The position numbers and the translations under genes are program-made. Shown here piece after piece: positions 22,072-29,534 of a stretch of DNA of 64,000 bases. A model generated the notes under the pieces. It was not told where the DNA came from. It worked only from the letters and a program-made list of their open reading frames with translations, and made no database searches. The DNA is taken from assembly GCF_030372105.1 (NCBI RefSeq), contig NZ_JAUDBQ010000011.1:62001-126000 (forward strand), in the 5' to 3' direction. Within the stretch, counting starts at the first letter, position 1; each line of letters opens with the position of its first letter. The DNA comes from Cellulomonas cellasea. Its GTDB lineage: Bacteria; Actinomycetota; Actinomycetes; Actinomycetales; Cellulomonadaceae.

Positions 22072-23019
22072 ATGAGGCCTGACATGCGACGACGCGTCCT
22101 GATCACGAGCTCGATCCTGCTGGTCGCGCTGGTGGCGGCCTGCTCGGCGAGCGGCGACTCCGCGGTCGGCGGCGCGAGCGCCGAGTTCGGCTCAGGGATG
22201 ACCATGACGCAGGAGCAGGCCGGCGGTGGCGACGGCGGCGGCAGTGACGCGGCCGCCGACGAGTCGCTCGCCCTGGGATCGGTCGCCGACACGTCAGCCA
22301 GCCCCCGGGAGGTCATCACGCGGGGTGAGGTCACCCTCGCCGCCGAGGACCCCCGGGCCGCCGCGGCCGCGGTGGTGGCGCTCGTCGAGCGCGACGGAGG
22401 CCGGGTGGACGCGCGCTCGGAGAGTGCCGGCGCCGACGGGCAGGAGGCAGTCGCCTGGCTGACGGTGCGCATCCCGTCCGACGACATGACCTCGACGCTC
22501 ACGGCGCTCGAGGACATCGGCGAGGTCCGCCGAGTCGACCTCACCGCGGAGGACGTGACGGGCGACGTCCAGGACCTCGACGCGCGGATCCGCGCGATGC
22601 GGCTCTCCGCGTCGCGGATGGAGGAGCTGCTGTCACGCGCCACGACGAACTCGGACATCATCTCCGCCGAGAACGCCCTCGCGGAGCGGCAGGCGACCTT
22701 GGAGAGCATGCAGACCCAGCGCGCCCGGATCGCCGAGGAGGTCGCGCTGTCCACGTTGACGATCCAGATCTCCACGACGCCGCTCGTCGAGGCGGGGCCG
22801 CCGTCCACCGGGGGGTTCCTGGGCGGGCTGCAGGCCGGGTGGAACGCGCTCGTGACGGTGCTCGGCGGCCTGCTGGTGGTCGTCGGCGCACTGCTCCCCT
22901 GGGCCGCGCTGGGCGGAGTCCTCGCGGTGGCGGCCGTCGCCGTGGTGCGGGCCGCCCGCCGGCGCCGCTCGGCGGCGGAGGTGTCGGCGTCGGCCGATGG
23001 CGCTGGCGGCGCGATGTGA
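22072..23019 (+). CDS. DUF4349 domain-containing lipoprotein
   Basis: A 315-residue secreted lipoprotein: a positively charged N-terminus, a hydrophobic run and a lipobox LVAACSAS with the lipidated Cys at residue 24. The central DUF4349 domain includes ITRGEVTLAAEDPRAAAAAV, SESAGADGQEAVAWLTVRIP and a coiled-coil stretch at about 175-225 (SRMEELLSRATTNSDIISAE). A transmembrane helix lies near the C-terminus (about 265-300) followed by RAARRRRS. Thus both ends are membrane-attached. Family function is unknown. No partner gene is evident. Confidence 0.85.
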   Translation: MRPDMRRRVLITSSILLVALVAACSASGDSAVGGASAEFGSGMTMTQEQAGGGDGGGSDAAADESLALGSVADTSASPREVITRGEVTLAAEDPRAAAAAVVALVERDGGRVDARSESAGADGQEAVAWLTVRIPSDDMTSTLTALEDIGEVRRVDLTAEDVTGDVQDLDARIRAMRLSASRMEELLSRATTNSDIISAENALAERQATLESMQTQRARIAEEVALSTLTIQISTTPLVEAGPPSTGGFLGGLQAGWNALVTVLGGLLVVVGALLPWAALGGVLAVAAVAVVRAARRRRSAAEVSASADGAGGAM

Positions 23020-23039
23020 GGCAGCGCATGCTCGCCGCA

Positions 23040-23065
23040 GCGCTTGCTCACGGCGCTTGCCCACG
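23040..23065 (+). repeat. imperfect tandem 13-nt repeat
   Basis: GCGCTTGCTCACG is followed directly by GCGCTTGCCCACG. A short CCACGG/CCGTGG hairpin follows at 23061-23077 and may end transcription of the DUF4349 gene. Confidence 0.5.
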
Positions 23066-23093
23066 GCCGCACCGTGGCCGCGGGGCGCACTCC

Positions 23094-23122
23094 TTGACAA
23101 CGTTGTAAAGCGCGGCGAGGGT
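23094..23122 (+). promoter_or_regulatory. probable promoter of the GH127 gene
   Basis: TTGACA (23094-23099) and GAGGGT (23117-23122) are spaced by 17 bp, a good sigma-70-type arrangement. The -35 overlaps a LacI-type palindrome and a second one lies over the likely start site. Confidence 0.55.
23095..23108. promoter_or_regulatory. LacI-family-type operator 1
   Basis: TGACAACGTTGTAA contains a perfect ACAACGTTGT palindrome with the central CG typical of LacI-family operators in actinobacteria. It overlaps the -35 element, so binding would block polymerase. Confidence 0.6.
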
Positions 23123-23124
23123 AC

Positions 23125-23140
23125 GTCGAACGACGTTGTC
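23125..23140. promoter_or_regulatory. LacI-family-type operator 2 (weaker)
   Basis: GTCGAACGACGTTGTC has AACG and CGTT half-sites with one extra central base. Its centre is about 31.5 bp, three helical turns, from operator 1. Confidence 0.4.
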
Positions 23141-23161
23141 CCCCGCACGGCAAGGAAGCCC

Positions 23162-25081
23162 ATGCGCACCCCCTCCCCCCACAGCGGCCCGGTGGCCCCC
23201 CGCGCCGCCGAGCGGCTCGCCCAGCAGCCGCTGCCGGCCAGCTCCATCCGCCTCGACCCCGACGGACACCTGGGCGCCTGGCAGCGCCTCAACGCCGCGG
23301 CGACCATCCCGCACTGCGTCGAGATGCTGGAGGACAGCGGCGCCCTCGACAACCTGCGGCGTGTGGTCGGCCGCGCCGACGGGCCGCATGTCGGCTACAA
23401 CTTCGCGGACTCCGACGTCTACAAGGTGCTCGAGGCGATCGGCTGGGAGATCGGCCGCACCGGGACGGCGGAGTGGGACGGCTTCCTCGACGCGACCCTC
23501 GAGCTGCTCGCCGCCGTGCAAGACGCCGACGGCTACCTCAACTCGTGGGTGCAGGGGACGCGTCCAGACGAGCGGTTCAGCGATCTGCGGTGGTCGCATG
23601 AGCTGTACTGCACGGGCCACCTGGTGCAGGCGGCCATCGCCCTGCACCGCGGCGCCGGGCGCACCGACTTCCTGGACCTGGCCCGGCGCGCGGCCGACCT
23701 CCTGGTGCGCCGCTTCGGTCCCGACGGGCAGATCGGGGTGTGCGGCCACCCGGAGATCGAGACCGCGCTCGTCGAGCTGTACCGCACCACGGCCCACGAC
23801 CCCTACCTGGACCTCGCCCGGCGCATGGTCGACGCGCGCGGCCAGGGCCTGCTGGGACCCGACCGGCTCGGCCCGCACTACTTCCAGGACCATGCCCCGG
23901 TGCGCGCCTCGCGCGAGGCGACCGGGCACGCGGTGCGCCAGGTGTACCTCAACGCCGGGGTGACGGACGTCTACACCGAGCAGGGCGACCCGAGCCTGCT
24001 GGGCGCCATGCGCGATCAGTGGGCCTCCGCCCATGAGCAGAAGATGCACCTCACCGGCGCCCTGGGGTCACGGCACTTCGACGAGTCCTTCGGCGACCCG
24101 TACGAGCTGCCGCCGGACCGCGCGTACGCGGAGACCTGCGCGGCCATCGGCGACGTGATGTGGGGCCACCGCATGCTGCTGGTGGAGGGCGGCTCGAGGC
24201 ACGCCGACGCGATGGAGCGCGCGCTGCTCAACGCGATCGCGGCCGCCGTCGGCGAGGACGGGCGCGCGTTCTTCTACTCGAACCCGCTGCACCTGCGCGC
24301 AGGGCACCGCGAGGAGGAGAACGCCCCATCGCGCCGCACCCCCTGGTACGCCTGCGCGTGCTGCCCGCCGAACATCGCGCGCCTTGTCGCGTCGCTGCAC
24401 GCCTACGTGAGCACCCGCGACGAGGACACGCTCTACGTGCACCTGCTCACCGCCGCCGAGATCGACCTCCCCCCGGGCCTGGGCCAGGGCACGCTGCGCG
24501 TCACGACCGACTACCCGGCGAGCGGCGTCGTCCACGTGGAGCTCGACGGGCGGCTCGCGGACGGCGCGGCGATCGCCCTGAGGACACCCGGTTGGGCCAC
24601 ACAGTGGAGCCTGGCCGTCGACGGGATCGAGGTGGGCGAGCCGGAGGTCCGCGACGGCTACGTCGTCGTGCGGGGCAGCGCATCGGCCCGGCTGCGGGTC
24701 GACCTCGAGCTGGCGATGGAGCCTCGGCTGGTGGCGGCCCACCCACGGGTCGACGCGGTGCGCGGCACGCGAGCGGTGCTGCGCGGGCCCGTCGTCTACT
24801 GCGTCGAGCAGGCCGACCATCCCGGCCAGGGCTCGATCGAGGACCTCGTCCTGCTGCCGGGCGCGGAGATCGGGGTGACGCCCGGGGCGCCGGGCTCGCT
24901 CCCGACGTTGCGCCTGGCAGCCGTCACCCGGCCTGCCGGCGATGCCGGGCTGTACGCCACGGCGCCTGCTGGGGAGCGGGACGTGGCGGCCTGCGAGTGG
25001 GTCGAGGCCACAGCGATCCCGTACGCGCGGTGGGGCAACCGGGAGCCGGGCCCGATGCGGGTGTGGCTCCCCCTGGCCTAG
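23162..25081 (+). CDS. GH127-type beta-L-arabinofuranosidase family protein
   Basis: A 639-residue cytoplasmic protein (no signal peptide) with the (alpha/alpha)6 catalytic domain of glycoside hydrolase family 127 and beta-sandwich modules behind it. The catalytic metal-thiolate set is visible: Glu324 and Cys326 in YAETCAAIG, and Cys400-Cys401 in CACCPPNIA, with spacing close to the characterised bifidobacterial enzyme. The family removes beta-L-arabinofuranosyl units from plant glycans and glycoproteins. The ATG was chosen for the AAGGAAG site upstream. The gene stands alone: no transporter or LacI gene is adjacent, although the promoter carries LacI-type operators. Its stop shares the CTAG tetranucleotide with the convergent regulator. 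Confidence 0.88.
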   Translation: MRTPSPHSGPVAPRAAERLAQQPLPASSIRLDPDGHLGAWQRLNAAATIPHCVEMLEDSGALDNLRRVVGRADGPHVGYNFADSDVYKVLEAIGWEIGRTGTAEWDGFLDATLELLAAVQDADGYLNSWVQGTRPDERFSDLRWSHELYCTGHLVQAAIALHRGAGRTDFLDLARRAADLLVRRFGPDGQIGVCGHPEIETALVELYRTTAHDPYLDLARRMVDARGQGLLGPDRLGPHYFQDHAPVRASREATGHAVRQVYLNAGVTDVYTEQGDPSLLGAMRDQWASAHEQKMHLTGALGSRHFDESFGDPYELPPDRAYAETCAAIGDVMWGHRMLLVEGGSRHADAMERALLNAIAAAVGEDGRAFFYSNPLHLRAGHREEENAPSRRTPWYACACCPPNIARLVASLHAYVSTRDEDTLYVHLLTAAEIDLPPGLGQGTLRVTTDYPASGVVHVELDGRLADGAAIALRTPGWATQWSLAVDGIEVGEPEVRDGYVVVRGSASARLRVDLELAMEPRLVAAHPRVDAVRGTRAVLRGPVVYCVEQADHPGQGSIEDLVLLPGAEIGVTPGAPGSLPTLRLAAVTRPAGDAGLYATAPAGERDVAACEWVEATAIPYARWGNREPGPMRVWLPLA

Positions 25082-25785
25082 GCCCCGTCCTCCTCGTTGC
25101 CGAGCTCGTTGAGGTAGTTGTAGATCGTGAACCGGGTGACCTGGAGCGCCTGGGCGGCGATCTCCACGCTCTCCTTGAGCAGGAAGAAGCCCCGGTCCTT
25201 GAGGTCGCTGACGACTGTGAGCTTGTGCTTCTTCTGCATGAGCTCGACGGGCACGCCGCAGGCGCCGATGGCCTCGGTCAGGAGGTGCTGGGCGAGCTCG
25301 TCGATGTCGCGGACGAAGTTCTCCGCGGGCGGCTCGGCCTGCGCCTCGCTGTCGGAGGCAGGGCTGGCGCCGGGGAGCATGGCCTCGGCGATCGCCTTGA
25401 CGGCCTGCCAGATCATGACGTCGGCGTTGACGCAGAGCGCGGCGACGGGCGTGTCGTTGCTGTCGCGGATGACGATGGTGGTCGAGCGCAGCACACGGCC
25501 GTCAGGCAGGCGCGTCTCGTAGCCGACGGTGGTCGCCAGGGTCCCCTCGGCGGCCTTGCGCAGCAGCATGTCGGTGGAGGGGCTCCCGACGCTGCGGCCG
25601 GTGACGTCCCCGGCGATGGCCACGATCGAGTTGGGCAGCCGGCGCAGGTCGTGCAGGACGACCTCGGCGTCGCCGGGCAGCGTGCCCGCCAGCGGCTCGA
25701 CGAGGGCCGAGAGCACCGCGAGCACGTGCTCCGCCTCGGGTGTCGAAGGTCCTGCGTCGGGTGCGGTTCGCTTTGTCATCCTCAT
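25078..25785 (-). CDS. YheO/DauR-type PAS-HTH transcriptional regulator
   Basis: A 235-residue regulator. Residues about 20-130 match the YheO-like PAS domain (EVVLHDLRRLPNSIVAIAGD, then VCVNADV-like ALCVNADVMIWQAV), and the last about 60 residues are a DauR-type helix-turn-helix (KDRGFFLLKESVEIAAQALQ, VTRFTIYNYLNEL). Relatives control amino-acid catabolic genes such as D-arginine catabolism. It is divergent from tnaA, and the intervening 180 bp hold repeated TTGA-N5-TCAA sites, so it is probably the regulator of the tryptophanase cluster and perhaps of itself. Two ATGs two codons apart are possible starts. Its 3' end overlaps the GH127 stop by two to three bases. Confidence 0.88.
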   Translation of the reverse strand: MRMTKRTAPDAGPSTPEAEHVLAVLSALVEPLAGTLPGDAEVVLHDLRRLPNSIVAIAGDVTGRSVGSPSTDMLLRKAAEGTLATTVGYETRLPDGRVLRSTTIVIRDSNDTPVAALCVNADVMIWQAVKAIAEAMLPGASPASDSEAQAEPPAENFVRDIDELAQHLLTEAIGACGVPVELMQKKHKLTVVSDLKDRGFFLLKESVEIAAQALQVTRFTIYNYLNELGNEEDGA

Positions 25786-25807
25786 GACCCTCTCAACTAT
25801 GTGAAGA

Positions 25808-25836
25808 CCATCATGACACGATGTTGATTAACTCAA
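25808..25836 (-). promoter_or_regulatory. possible promoter of the divergent regulator
   Basis: On the minus strand TTGAGT (25836-25831) is followed after 17-18 bp by TGATGG/GATGGT. The -35 overlaps operator 1, which would allow autoregulation. Confidence 0.35.
25824..25836. promoter_or_regulatory. tna operator 1, TTGA-N5-TCAA
   Basis: TTGA, spacer TTAAC, TCAA. First of four sites in 20-bp register. Confidence 0.65.
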
Positions 25837-25843
25837 ATGCCTG

Positions 25844-25856
25844 TTGAAGTCTTCAA
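25844..25856. promoter_or_regulatory. tna operator 2, TTGA-N5-TCAA, overlaps -35
   Basis: TTGAAGTCTTCAA is a perfect palindrome. Its left arm is also the -35 hexamer TTGAAG of the tnaA promoter. Confidence 0.7.
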
Positions 25857-25872
25857 AGGTTGCCGCTACGCT
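25844..25872 (+). promoter_or_regulatory. tnaA promoter
   Basis: TTGAAG (-35, 25844-25849), a 17-bp spacer and TACGCT (-10, 25867-25872) give a well-formed promoter. A start near 25879 falls just before operator 3, leaving an approximately 90-nt leader. Confidence 0.6.
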
Positions 25873-25883
25873 CCCGACAGGCG

Positions 25884-25896
25884 TTGAGGCTTTCAA
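25884..25896. promoter_or_regulatory. tna operator 3, TTGA-N5-TCAA
   Basis: TTGA, spacer GGCTT, TCAA, exactly 40 bp from operator 2 and just downstream of the likely transcription start. Confidence 0.65.
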
Positions 25897-25903
25897 CGAA
25901 GAG

Positions 25904-25916
25904 TTGAAGTTCTGAC
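25904..25916. promoter_or_regulatory. tna operator 4 (degenerate)
   Basis: TTGA, spacer AGTTC, TGAC: the left half is intact and the right half has two mismatches. It lies exactly 20 bp after operator 3. Confidence 0.4.
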
Positions 25917-25966: not shown

Positions 25967-27343
25967 ATGCGGTACATGCCCGAGCCGTTCAAGATCAAGA
26001 TGGTCGAACCGATCAAGATGACCACCCGCGCAGAGCGCGAGGCCTTCATCCGGGACGCCCACTACAACGCGTTCTCGCTCTCGGCCGAGGACGTCTACAT
26101 CGACCTCCAGACGGACAGCGGCACGGGCTCCATGAGCGACTCCCAATGGGGCGCGATCATGCGGGGCGACGAGTCGTACTCCGGCGGCCGCAGCTACTAC
26201 CGGCTCATCGAGGCCGGCAAGGAGATCTTCGGCTACGACTACGTCCAGCCCGTCCACCAGGGCCGCGCTGCGGAGAAGGTCCTCTTCCCGCTGATCGTCA
26301 CGCCCGGCCAGTACGTCATCTCCAACATGTTCTTCGACACCACGCGGGCCCACGTCGGCCTCGCCGGCGGCCGCGCGATCGACTGCGTGTGCCCCGAGGG
26401 CCTCGACTCCGGCGCCTACTTCGACTTCAAGGGCAACATGGACGTGCCCCGCCTGCGGTCGCTGATCGCCGAGCACGGCGCGGAGAACATCGCCGCGATC
26501 GTCATGACGATCACCAACAACAGCGTCGGCGGCCAGCCCGTCTCGATGGCCAACATGCGCGAGACCGCCGCGCTGGCCAAGGAGCACGGCATCCTCGTCG
26601 TCATCGACGCGGCGCGGTACGCCGAGAACGCGTTCTTCATCAAGGAGCGCGAGGCCGAGTTCGCCGACGCCACGCCGCTGGAGATCACGCGCGAGATGTT
26701 CAGCCACGGCGACGTCTTCACCATGAGCGCCAAGAAGGACGCGCTGGTCAACATGGGCGGCATGCTCGCCGTGCGCGAGGACGGGCCGCTCGTCGACGCC
26801 ATCAAGACGCGCGTCATCTCCTTCGAGGGCTACCTCACCTACGGCGGGCTCGCGGGCCGCGACCTCGAGGCCATGACCACGGGCCTCTACGAGGGCCTGG
26901 ACTACGACTACCTGCGCTACCGCATCGGCCAGATGCAGTACCTCGGGGCGCGGCTCGAGGAGGCGGGCATCCCGTTCCAGAACCCCGTCGGCGGCCACGC
27001 CGTCTTCATCGACGCCGGCAAGCTCCTCCCGCACATCCCGTACGACGAGTTCCCCGGCCAGGCCCTCACCGTCGAGTTGTACATCGAGGCCGGCATCCGC
27101 GGCTGCGACATCGGCTCCTACATGATGGACAGGGACCCCGAGACGGGCGAGCAGCAGCGCGCGCCGTTCGAGTTCACCCGGCTGGCCATCCCGCGCCGCG
27201 TCTACACCCAGGCCCACCTCGACGTGGTCGCCGACGCCCTCATCGCCATCCGGGACCGCGCCGCCGGCATCAAGGGCTACCAGATCACCTGGGAGCCCAA
27301 GGTCCTGCGCCACTTCACCTCGCACCTCAAGCCGGTCGACTGA
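25967..27343 (+). CDS. tnaA: tryptophanase
   Basis: A 458-residue PLP-dependent beta-eliminating lyase that splits tryptophan to indole, pyruvate and ammonia. The PLP lysine is in [12 protein letters not shown] at about residue 257. Resemblance to E. coli TnaA is visible throughout: [44 protein letters not shown] and [13 protein letters not shown], the latter containing the tryptophanase-type His near the C-terminus. The tyrosine phenol-lyase Arg signature near the substrate pocket is not present ([10 protein letters not shown] here), which favours tryptophanase. GAGGAGAGG precedes the chosen ATG. Followed by a permease and RidA. No TnaC-like leader peptide is evident in the short leader. Confidence 0.9.
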
Positions 27344-27453: not shown

Positions 27454-28899
27454 ATGAGCACAGAGGCACGCGAGGGAACGGCCAGCGCCGATCCGTCCGT
27501 CGCTCCGACCGGCGGTGAGGATGCCCCCACCACGGAGGGCGGCCTGCGGAGAGGGCTGAAGAACCGCCATATCCAGATGATCGCGCTGGGCGGCGCGATC
27601 GGCACCGGGCTGTTCTACGGCTCGGCGTCCAGCATCGGCATGGCCGGCCCGTCCATCACGCTGGCGTACCTGATCGGCGGCGCGGTGATCTTCCTGATCA
27701 TGCGCGCCCTCGGCGAGATGTCGTGGCACACCCCGGTCTCCGGGGCGTTCAGCCACTACGCCTTCACCAACTGGGGACGCTTCGCCGGGTTCTTCTCCGG
27801 CTGGAACTACTGGTTCAACTACATCGCCGTGAGCATGGCCGAGCTGGCCGTGGTGGGGATCTACGTCAACTTCTGGCTCCCCGACGTCCCGACCTGGGTG
27901 TCCGCCGCGATCTTCCTGCTGATCGTCACGTGCGTGAACCTGGTCAGCGTCAAGGCCTACGGCGAGTTCGAGTTCTGGTTCGCGATCGTCAAGGTCGTCG
28001 CGATCATCGCGATGATCGCCCTCGGCGCCGTGATCGTGTTCTTCGGCGTCGGCCAGACGAGCTCCACCGGGATCTCCAACCTCTGGGAGCACGGCGGCTA
28101 CTTCCCGAACGGCCTGTGGGGCATGGCCACCGCGCTCGTCGTGGTGATGTTCTCCTTCGGGGGCGTCGAGCTCATCGGCATCACCGCCGGCGAGGCGGAG
28201 AACCCGCGCCGCAGCATCCCCAAGGCGATCAACCAGGTTGTCTACCGGATCCTCATCTTCTACGTCGGCGCGATCCTCGTGATGCTCTGCATCTTCCCGT
28301 GGGACCAGATCGGCGAGGGCGGCAGCCCGTTCGTCATCATCTTCGACAACATCGGCATCGCGGGCGCCGCGGCGCTGCTCAACGTGGTGGTCCTCACCGC
28401 GGCGGTGTCCGCGTACAACAGCGGCCTCTACAGCAACGGGCGCATGCTCTACAGCCTCGCGCAGCAGGGCAACGCCCCGAAGTACCTGGGCAAGCTCAAC
28501 CGCAACGGCTCCCCGATGGCCGGGGTGCTGACCTCCTCGGCCGTCACCGCGCTGGCCGTGGTGCTCAACTTCCTGGTCCCCGGGAAGGTGTTCCTCTACA
28601 CGATGGCCGTCGCGCTCATCGCCGGCGTCTTCAACTGGACGATGGTCGTCATCACGCAGATGAAGTTCCGCAAGCGCATCGGCGCCGCCGAGGTCGAGAA
28701 GCTCGGCTTCAAGATGCCGTTCTACCCCGTGTCGAACTACATCGTGCTCGTGTTCCTGGCCGGGGTCGTCGTCCTCATGGCCTTCCTGCCGGACTTCCGG
28801 TACGCGCTGTACGTCGGCCCCGTCTGGGTCGGCATCCTGTACGTCGCCTTCCGGTTCAAGACGAGGTCCGAGCGCCGGCCCGCCCCCGTCGAGAGCTGA
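27454..28899 (+). CDS. amino-acid permease, APC superfamily (AAT family)
   Basis: A 481-residue membrane transporter with about twelve transmembrane helices. The family signature LKNRHIQMIALGGAIGTGLF opens the first helix, followed by GGAVIFLIMRALGEMSWHTP and GAFSHYAFTNWGRFAGF. The C-terminus is short and basic. The subgroup (AroP/PheP/GabP/AnsP) cannot be fixed from sequence alone, but its place between tnaA and ridA suggests tryptophan or another aromatic amino acid. A 40-residue hydrophilic N-terminal tail precedes the first helix. AAGGGA lies about 11 nt before the ATG. Confidence 0.88.
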   Translation: MSTEAREGTASADPSVAPTGGEDAPTTEGGLRRGLKNRHIQMIALGGAIGTGLFYGSASSIGMAGPSITLAYLIGGAVIFLIMRALGEMSWHTPVSGAFSHYAFTNWGRFAGFFSGWNYWFNYIAVSMAELAVVGIYVNFWLPDVPTWVSAAIFLLIVTCVNLVSVKAYGEFEFWFAIVKVVAIIAMIALGAVIVFFGVGQTSSTGISNLWEHGGYFPNGLWGMATALVVVMFSFGGVELIGITAGEAENPRRSIPKAINQVVYRILIFYVGAILVMLCIFPWDQIGEGGSPFVIIFDNIGIAGAAALLNVVVLTAAVSAYNSGLYSNGRMLYSLAQQGNAPKYLGKLNRNGSPMAGVLTSSAVTALAVVLNFLVPGKVFLYTMAVALIAGVFNWTMVVITQMKFRKRIGAAEVEKLGFKMPFYPVSNYIVLVFLAGVVVLMAFLPDFRYALYVGPVWVGILYVAFRFKTRSERRPAPVES

Positions 28900-29000: not shown

Positions 29001-29534
29001 ATGCCCACCACCACACCGCCTGCCGAGCCCGACGCCAGCGGCGCGCACTCGGCCCGGCTCGCCCGCCACGGCCTCGTCCTCCCCGTCGTCGCCTCGCCTG
29101 TCGCCGCCTACGAGCCCGCCGTCCGCTCCGGGGCCTGGGTCTGGACGTCAGGCCAACTGCCACTGGTCGACGGCCGGCTCGACGAGCGCGGCAAGGTGGG
29201 CGACGGCCCCGGCTGCGTCACCCCCGAGGCGGCCACGCTGCTGGCCCGGACGGCCGCCCTCAACGCGATCGCCGCCGCCGCCGCACAGGCCGGGGGCATC
29301 GACCGCATCCGGCGCGTGGTGAAGCTGGTGGGGTTCGTCGCGAGCGACCCGGGCTTCACCGGGCAGCCCGCAGTGGTCAACGGCGCCAGCGAGGTGCTGC
29401 ACGCCGTCTTCGGGGCCGCCGGGGCGCATGCGCGCAGCGCGGTCGGCGTGGCCGCGCTCCCCCTCGACGCCCCGGTCGAGATCGAGCTCGTCGTCGAGGT
29501 CGAGGCCGACGAGAGGGTCGTCACAGGCGGCTGA
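29001..29534 (+). CDS. RidA (YjgF/YER057c/UK114) family enamine/imine deaminase
   Basis: A 177-residue protein of the RidA fold, longer than the usual about 130 residues because of an N-terminal extension of roughly 30 residues. The fold core includes AYEPAVRSGAWVWTSGQLPL, ALNAIAAAAAQAGGIDRIRR, VVKLVGFVASDPGF and VGVAALPLDAPVEIELVVEV. The archetypal RidA deaminase Arg position is not clear, so the exact subgroup is uncertain. RidA proteins hydrolyse 2-aminoacrylate-type enamines, the intermediate released by PLP lyases such as tryptophanase, so the neighbourhood makes biochemical sense. The ATG follows TGGAG. Confidence 0.85.
   Translation: MPTTTPPAEPDASGAHSARLARHGLVLPVVASPVAAYEPAVRSGAWVWTSGQLPLVDGRLDERGKVGDGPGCVTPEAATLLARTAALNAIAAAAAQAGGIDRIRRVVKLVGFVASDPGFTGQPAVVNGASEVLHAVFGAAGAHARSAVGVAALPLDAPVEIELVVEVEADERVVTGG

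Follow-up and report, generated by a model that had tools for sequence, protein, structure and literature searches.

A conserved array of TTGA half-sites between the genes of a PAS_6-HTH_22 regulator and a tryptophanase-type enzyme is very probably the operator of the regulator

The 181-bp gap between the gene of a PAS_6-HTH_22 transcriptional regulator and a divergent tryptophanase-type gene (tnaA) contains an array of TTGA half-sites arranged on a 20-bp pitch, and the same elements recur upstream of relatives of the regulator in many actinobacteria of other genera. Comparison of these sequences indicates that the array is very probably the docking site (operator) of the adjacent regulator. 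In the reading that we consider the most likely one, and hold with fair confidence, the bound regulator would repress an operon comprising tnaA, a permease gene and a Rid-family gene. This predicted operator is new, for a regulator family that is already known.

The pattern TTGA-N5-TCAA has exactly three exact matches in the window (the whole 64-kb stretch of DNA that was analysed), all located in the gap (sites 1 to 3 in Table 1), for a chance expectation of 0.03, and three matches were never attained in 100 dinucleotide shuffles. Genome-wide (3.81 Mb), the pattern was found at 10 places, of which the gap holds three, versus 5 places for a reversed control pattern. Perfect copies of the tandem of three half-sites TTGA-N5-TCAA-N7-TTGA, two on the forward and one on the reverse strand, occurred solely within the gap; the next best place in the genome carried one mismatch. 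Scoring of the 20-bp registers gave 7/8 at 25784, 3/8 at 25804, 8/8 at 25824 and 25844, 1/8 at 25864, 8/8 at 25884 and 6/8 at 25904, registers 25804 and 25864 being empty. Of the features described in the first-pass annotation, the three intact sites were recovered both by the pattern search over 64 kb and by register scoring, and the intact left half at 25904 by register scoring. The 20-bp register also stood as described, although the earlier listing had omitted the near-site at 25784. The proposal that the sites lie on the same face of the helix is only approximate: with 10.5 bp per turn, a step of 20 bp lags two full turns by about 34 degrees, and by the same arithmetic a separation of 80 bp amounts to an offset of about 140 degrees. 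The half-sites of the array can also be read as TCAA-N7-TTGA, at 25833 and 25893. Exact repeat finding across the gap returned nothing at the settings used.

Table 1. Features of the regulator-tnaA region (positions in the window).
Feature	Position	Strand	Basis
PAS_6 (YheO-like) + HTH_22 transcriptional regulator, 235 aa, presumed to bind the array	25078..25785	-	Pfam; sites upstream of relatives
Near-site ATGA-CCCTC-TCAA, 7/8, same 20-bp register, over the regulator start codon	25784..25796	+	Register scoring
Site 1, TTGA-TTAAC-TCAA	25824..25836	+	Pattern search, register scoring
Alternative TCAA-N7-TTGA unit (TCAAATGCCTGTTGA) from adjoining halves (site 1 right, site 2 left)	25833..25847	+	
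Site 2, TTGA-AGTCT-TCAA; left half is the presumed -35	25844..25856	+	Pattern search, locus comparison
Presumed -35 of the tryptophanase promoter, TTGAAG	25844..25849	+	TACGCT after 17 bp; pattern in relatives
Presumed -10, TACGCT, in empty register 25864-25876	25867..25872	+	Locus comparison; consensus scan without match
Site 3, TTGA-GGCTT-TCAA, centre ~11 bp downstream of the inferred start (~25879)	25884..25896	+	
Perfect TCAAC-N5-GTTGA unit from adjoining halves (site 3 right, site 4 left)	25893..25907	+	
Site 4, 6/8, left half TTGA intact	25904..25916	+	Register scoring
Tryptophanase-type beta-eliminating lyase (tnaA)	25967..27343	+	PF01212 and NCBIfam PRK13238 above cut-off
Amino acid permease; AroP (aromatic permease) is the best model, score under cut-off	27454..28899	+	Pfam, NCBIfam
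Rid-family (YjgF / L-PSP) gene, presumed last of the operon	29001..29534	+	PF14588, PF01042; start codon hand-chosen

The regulator matched Pfam families PF08348 (E 2e-27, 95.8 bits) and PF13309 (E 3e-18, 66.1 bits), above the gathering cut-offs of 27 and 29.6, respectively. No credible relative was found among the solved structures compared with it. In the scan of named genomes, its nearest relative was from Cellulomonas timonensis (95% identical). Its distribution is patchy: positive genomes numbered 2 of 7 in the genus, 15 of 221 in the family (E 1e-20), 14 of 396 in the order (E 1e-50) and, own genome counted, 12 of 396 in the phylum (E 1e-45). The tnaA product passed the NCBIfam subfamily model PRK13238 (714.7 bits versus a cut-off of 285) and fell below the equivalog cut-offs for tryptophanase (TIGR02617, 595.5 versus 825.8 bits; NF053783, 590.5 versus 750) and for tyrosine phenol-lyase. 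Its best solved match was tryptophanase 8sij (652 bits), with tyrosine phenol-lyases at 486 bits or less; as judged from these scores, it resembles solved tryptophanases more closely than tyrosine phenol-lyases. The gene located tail-to-tail with the regulator (22997-25081) matched an aceric acid hydrolase model under the cut-off.

To evaluate conservation, the best 80 of the 236 encoded regulator relatives detected in named genomes were retained and combined with five loci of the family. Three of the resulting 85 upstream regions were too short (L046, L047 and L049), leaving 82, and removal of near-duplicates on the basis of shared 12-mers left 73. Each region comprised 300 bp past the start of the protein match and may include some N-terminal coding bases of the regulator. 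In this set, TTGA-to-TTGA distances peaked at 20 (12 pairs) and 40 (9), TCAA-to-TCAA distances at 20 (22), 40 (15) and 60 (9), TTGA-to-TCAA distances at 9 (20 pairs), and TCAA-to-TTGA distances at 11 (37 pairs). Seven pairs of scrambled control words gave no distance above 3. The 20 occurrences of TTGA-N5-TCAA and 37 of TCAA-N7-TTGA compare with means of 0.27 and 0.28, and a maximum of 2, in 100 dinucleotide shuffles.

Four elements were scored: TTGA-N5-TCAA, TCAA-N7-TTGA, CAAC-N5-GTTG, and a same-strand 20-bp pair. At least one was present in 53 of the 73 upstream regions versus 32 of 1429 other segments of the same loci, a contrast for which the Fisher test assumes an independence that related loci do not have. 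Among other segments of similar AT content, 22 of 435 were positive. Since the element set, and also the promoter pattern considered below, were defined after the loci had been viewed, counts over the 73 regions do not test the hypothesis independently. The 20 regions devoid of any element mostly belonged to relatives under 46% identity. Counted among the 20 are L057, L071 and L076, in which tnaA and the regulator gene are not divergently oriented; sites are present upstream of tnaA itself in L071 and L076. In a small held-out check, four of five members of the order outside the 82 loci, three of the five being from one genus, displayed an element. Conservation in orthologous intergenic regions, which had been proposed as a test of the array, was thus found across genera.

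The elements were associated with close relatedness to the regulator of the window: they were detected in 7/7 regions for relatives at 60% identity or more, 30/39 at 50-60%, 11/14 at 46-50%, and 5/13 below 46%. Two sets of more remote representatives of the domain family were devoid of elements (0/7 and 0/11). The 11 members of the latter set came from elsewhere in the phylum, three from the same class and eight from outside it, and their uniform lack of elements indicates that the predicted operator is specific to the regulator subfamily. No palindromic element was present upstream of 23 tryptophanase-family genes without a regulator match in their locus, these control homologues being only 36-52% identical to the enzyme of the window and one of them (L136) being read with 256 bp upstream. 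One of the 23 (L125) has a single 20-bp pair, found only under a broader definition of such pairs. Twenty divergent neighbours of the regulator, picked from the 73 loci for a clear open frame, were assigned by Pfam to SBP_bac_5 peptide-binding proteins (six), amino acid permeases (seven), and other families (seven). The motif therefore follows the regulator rather than the enzyme, as it is kept beside unrelated divergent genes and absent beside regulator-less tryptophanases. The attribution of the sites to the adjacent regulator in the first-pass annotation agrees with their recurrence upstream of relatives that have quite different divergent genes. The conserved operator may also offer a way to predict regulons, 13 of the 20 divergent neighbours being peptide-binding ABC proteins or amino acid permeases.

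The -35 of the predicted tnaA promoter would coincide with one half-site, the partner half-site lying in the promoter spacer. TACGCT was located, as previously annotated, within the empty register and 17 bp after TTGAAG. A generic promoter scanner found no promoter in the gap at a threshold of 9 of 12, so that the promoter call rests on conservation and not on consensus strength. The sequence TTG-N6-TCAA followed by TANNNT after a spacer of 16-17 bp was present in 11 of the 73 upstream regions (0.03 in shuffles), six of them tryptophanase loci and five not. Thirteen tryptophanase loci were aligned on the -35 by eye, and their -10 words were also set by eye. Relative to the -35, half-sites are at -20, 0, +9, +40 and +49 in the window; at -20, 0, +9 and +40 in L005; at -20, 0 and +40 in L018 (Actinotalea); and at -19, 0, +9, +40 and +49 in L003 (same genus). 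Positions -20, 0 and +40 are common to L001, L005 and L018. L019 and L021 keep part of this layout, and L021 has no -10 evident by eye in its gap. The remaining loci (L020, L022, L025, L031, L071, L073 and L076) mainly have in common the site at or near the -35, which is an N6 pair in L031 and a TCAA half only in L073. Use of site 2 as a -35 followed by a -10-like word in an empty register was accordingly seen to recur in other genera.

With transcription starting at about 25879, the centre of site 2 would be at about -29, over the -35 and the spacer, and that of site 3 at about +11. We favour repression because these are blocking positions and because a family member, CfiR, represses the adjacent Rid gene (see below). 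Dimers of the regulator would bind palindromes of TTGA half-sites on the 20-bp pitch, and protein bound to the site just downstream of the start would block the polymerase. A small molecule originating from amino acid catabolism and sensed by the PAS domain would release the regulator, the candidate inducers being tryptophan, indole, or the aminoacrylate or imine removed by Rid proteins. The earlier suggestion that polymerase is held in the gap between bound regulators is not favoured, as a half-site is itself the -35 and another site lies just past the inferred start.

The same regulator and sites could instead mediate activation, dimers at sites 1 and 2 contacting the polymerase. These sites lie upstream of and over the -35, and the weak -10 would fit an activated promoter. 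We nonetheless consider activation unlikely in view of the blocking positions of sites 2 and 3, of the recurrence of a half-site at +40 or +49 in L001, L003, L005, L018, L019 and L021, and of the repressor role of the one family member whose effect was described in the literature searched (PMC4519771). Under the preferred reading, repression by occlusion, autoregulation is likely, because the array also covers the upstream region of the regulator's own gene. The word CATGAT is present on the minus strand at 25810-25815, and the same or a similar word is found in L018 and L003. It may serve, inside the array, as the -10 for transcription of the regulator gene itself, as would suit autoregulation.

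The palindrome that forms the unit of the array was evaluated by counting chains of TTGA or GTTGC half-sites and their complements read on a lattice of 9- and 11-bp steps. In regions from the family, isolated tail-to-tail pairs (36) outnumbered isolated head-to-head pairs, TTGA-N5-TCAA (11), and 16 longer chains were present. The typical tail-to-tail unit, TCAAC-N5-GTTGA (TCAA-N7-TTGA, TTGC being accepted after G), is the commonest in the family. For this reason, TTGA-N5-TCAA is probably not the basic unit that the first-pass annotation had taken it to be, although the head-to-head pair is the commoner one at the -35 of tryptophanase loci. Dimers would recognise either a single one of the two palindromes, the other arising as a junction, or both pairings alike. 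Successive half-sites switch strand at the 9- and 11-bp steps, about one being offered per helical turn. An extended proposal combines a continuous array of regulator, in place of isolated dimers, with one half-site per turn and both pairings used, a -35 that is a half-site, a -10 in the empty register, and a PAS domain reading the imine or aminoacrylate removed by Rid; taken as a whole, it is doubtful. If true, it would imply, for a little-studied family, an operator logic shared across actinobacterial uptake and breakdown of peptides, amino acids and tryptophan. Its ligand component is a weak guess, because tblastn searches using two Rid queries placed a Rid gene close to the regulator in just 15 of 80 loci (best 80 of 236 relatives). 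The counts were 13 of 68 among loci of at least 8 kb and 9 of 80 with one Rid query alone. The Rid gene was rejected on this basis as a universal neighbour, the link being partial.

The FNR box is TTGAT-N4-ATCAA, that is, TTGA-N6-TCAA. A different regulator, such as a protein of the FNR/CRP type, could therefore be considered as the user of the sites, given the resemblance of the half-sites and the N6 pair of L031. Spacing led us to reject an FNR-type box, since all three sites of the window have N5, not six bases, and distance 9 is enriched across loci (20 pairs), whereas 10 is outside the eight commonest distances, the lowest of which has 3 pairs. The lack of palindromes beside the 23 tryptophanase-family genes without a PAS-HTH regulator, and their presence with the regulator beside unrelated genes, make any such protein very improbable. 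Chance or AT-rich promoter debris, for which it may be said that TTGA is the start of a -35, was rejected as next to inconceivable on the basis of the three sites for 0.03 expected, the shuffled 73-region sets, the AT-matched segments and the conservation across genera.

The E. coli tna operon consists of a tryptophanase gene followed by an amino acid permease gene, and is controlled by attenuation involving the leader peptide TnaC. The operon of the window has the same tryptophanase-permease order, but differs by its dedicated divergent regulator and by the lack of a leader ORF containing Trp. In the 94-bp tnaA leader, the sole stopped ORF of at least 5 codons is 7 codons long and lacks Trp; in the absence of a Trp-containing peptide, TnaC-like attenuation was rejected. 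The array is also a candidate means of regulating tryptophanase where no TnaC leader exists. Tandem operators in which palindromes at fixed spacing cover promoters of amino acid metabolism genes are used by TrpR, ArgR and TyrR; the array of the window resembles these in its fixed spacing and differs in the protein and the half-site.

PAS_6-HTH regulators amounted to 1816 sequences by 2015, according to PMC4519771, and no published binding site or operator for the family was found in the literature searched. The conserved operator would provide this family with a testable half-site and points to promoter occlusion as the likely mechanism. In Campylobacter jejuni, deletion of the gene for CfiR (Cj1387c), a YheO-like PAS_6-HTH regulator, was described as raising the adjacent Rid protein cj1388, indicating repression (PMC4519771). 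The terms "binding site" and "palindrom" are absent from the main text of that paper. CfiR has the same kind of domain pair as the regulator of the window and is likewise encoded beside a Rid/L-PSP gene, as described in the same source; unlike the locus of the window, its locus has no tryptophanase. According to PMC7789669, DauR (PA3864) of Pseudomonas aeruginosa combines PF08348 and PF13309, as does the regulator of the window, and regulates an amino acid catabolic operon. It differs in controlling D-arginine catabolism, and no operator for DauR was found in the literature searched. DauR is a repressor. A ChIP-exo experiment used E. coli YheO, as stated in PMC6892915, and PMC10717218 concerns an MmyB-like PAS protein.

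Sites matching TCAAC-N5-GTTGA with one mismatch were too common in the genome (108 forward versus 44 for a control pattern) to be read as second targets. Three candidate places for such targets were noted, two that look intergenic and a third at the 5' end of an open frame. At position 84860 of contig C29 of the same genome (G000; L138:1461), an intergenic TCAACAACTTGTTGACAACGGTGTGTTGA with several TTGA half-sites precedes a small open frame, and could be a second target or the site of another regulator. On contig C1 of G000 (215156-215199; L137:1357-1400), TCAACGTTTCGTTGA and TCAAGCCACAGTTGA, 29 bp apart, are located just before an open frame and are a possible further target. Upstream of distant PAS_6-HTH_22 regulators, L142, L143 and L148 share a different stretch, CTAACAGA...AGACAAATTGT or close variants, which is perhaps the operator of another subfamily.
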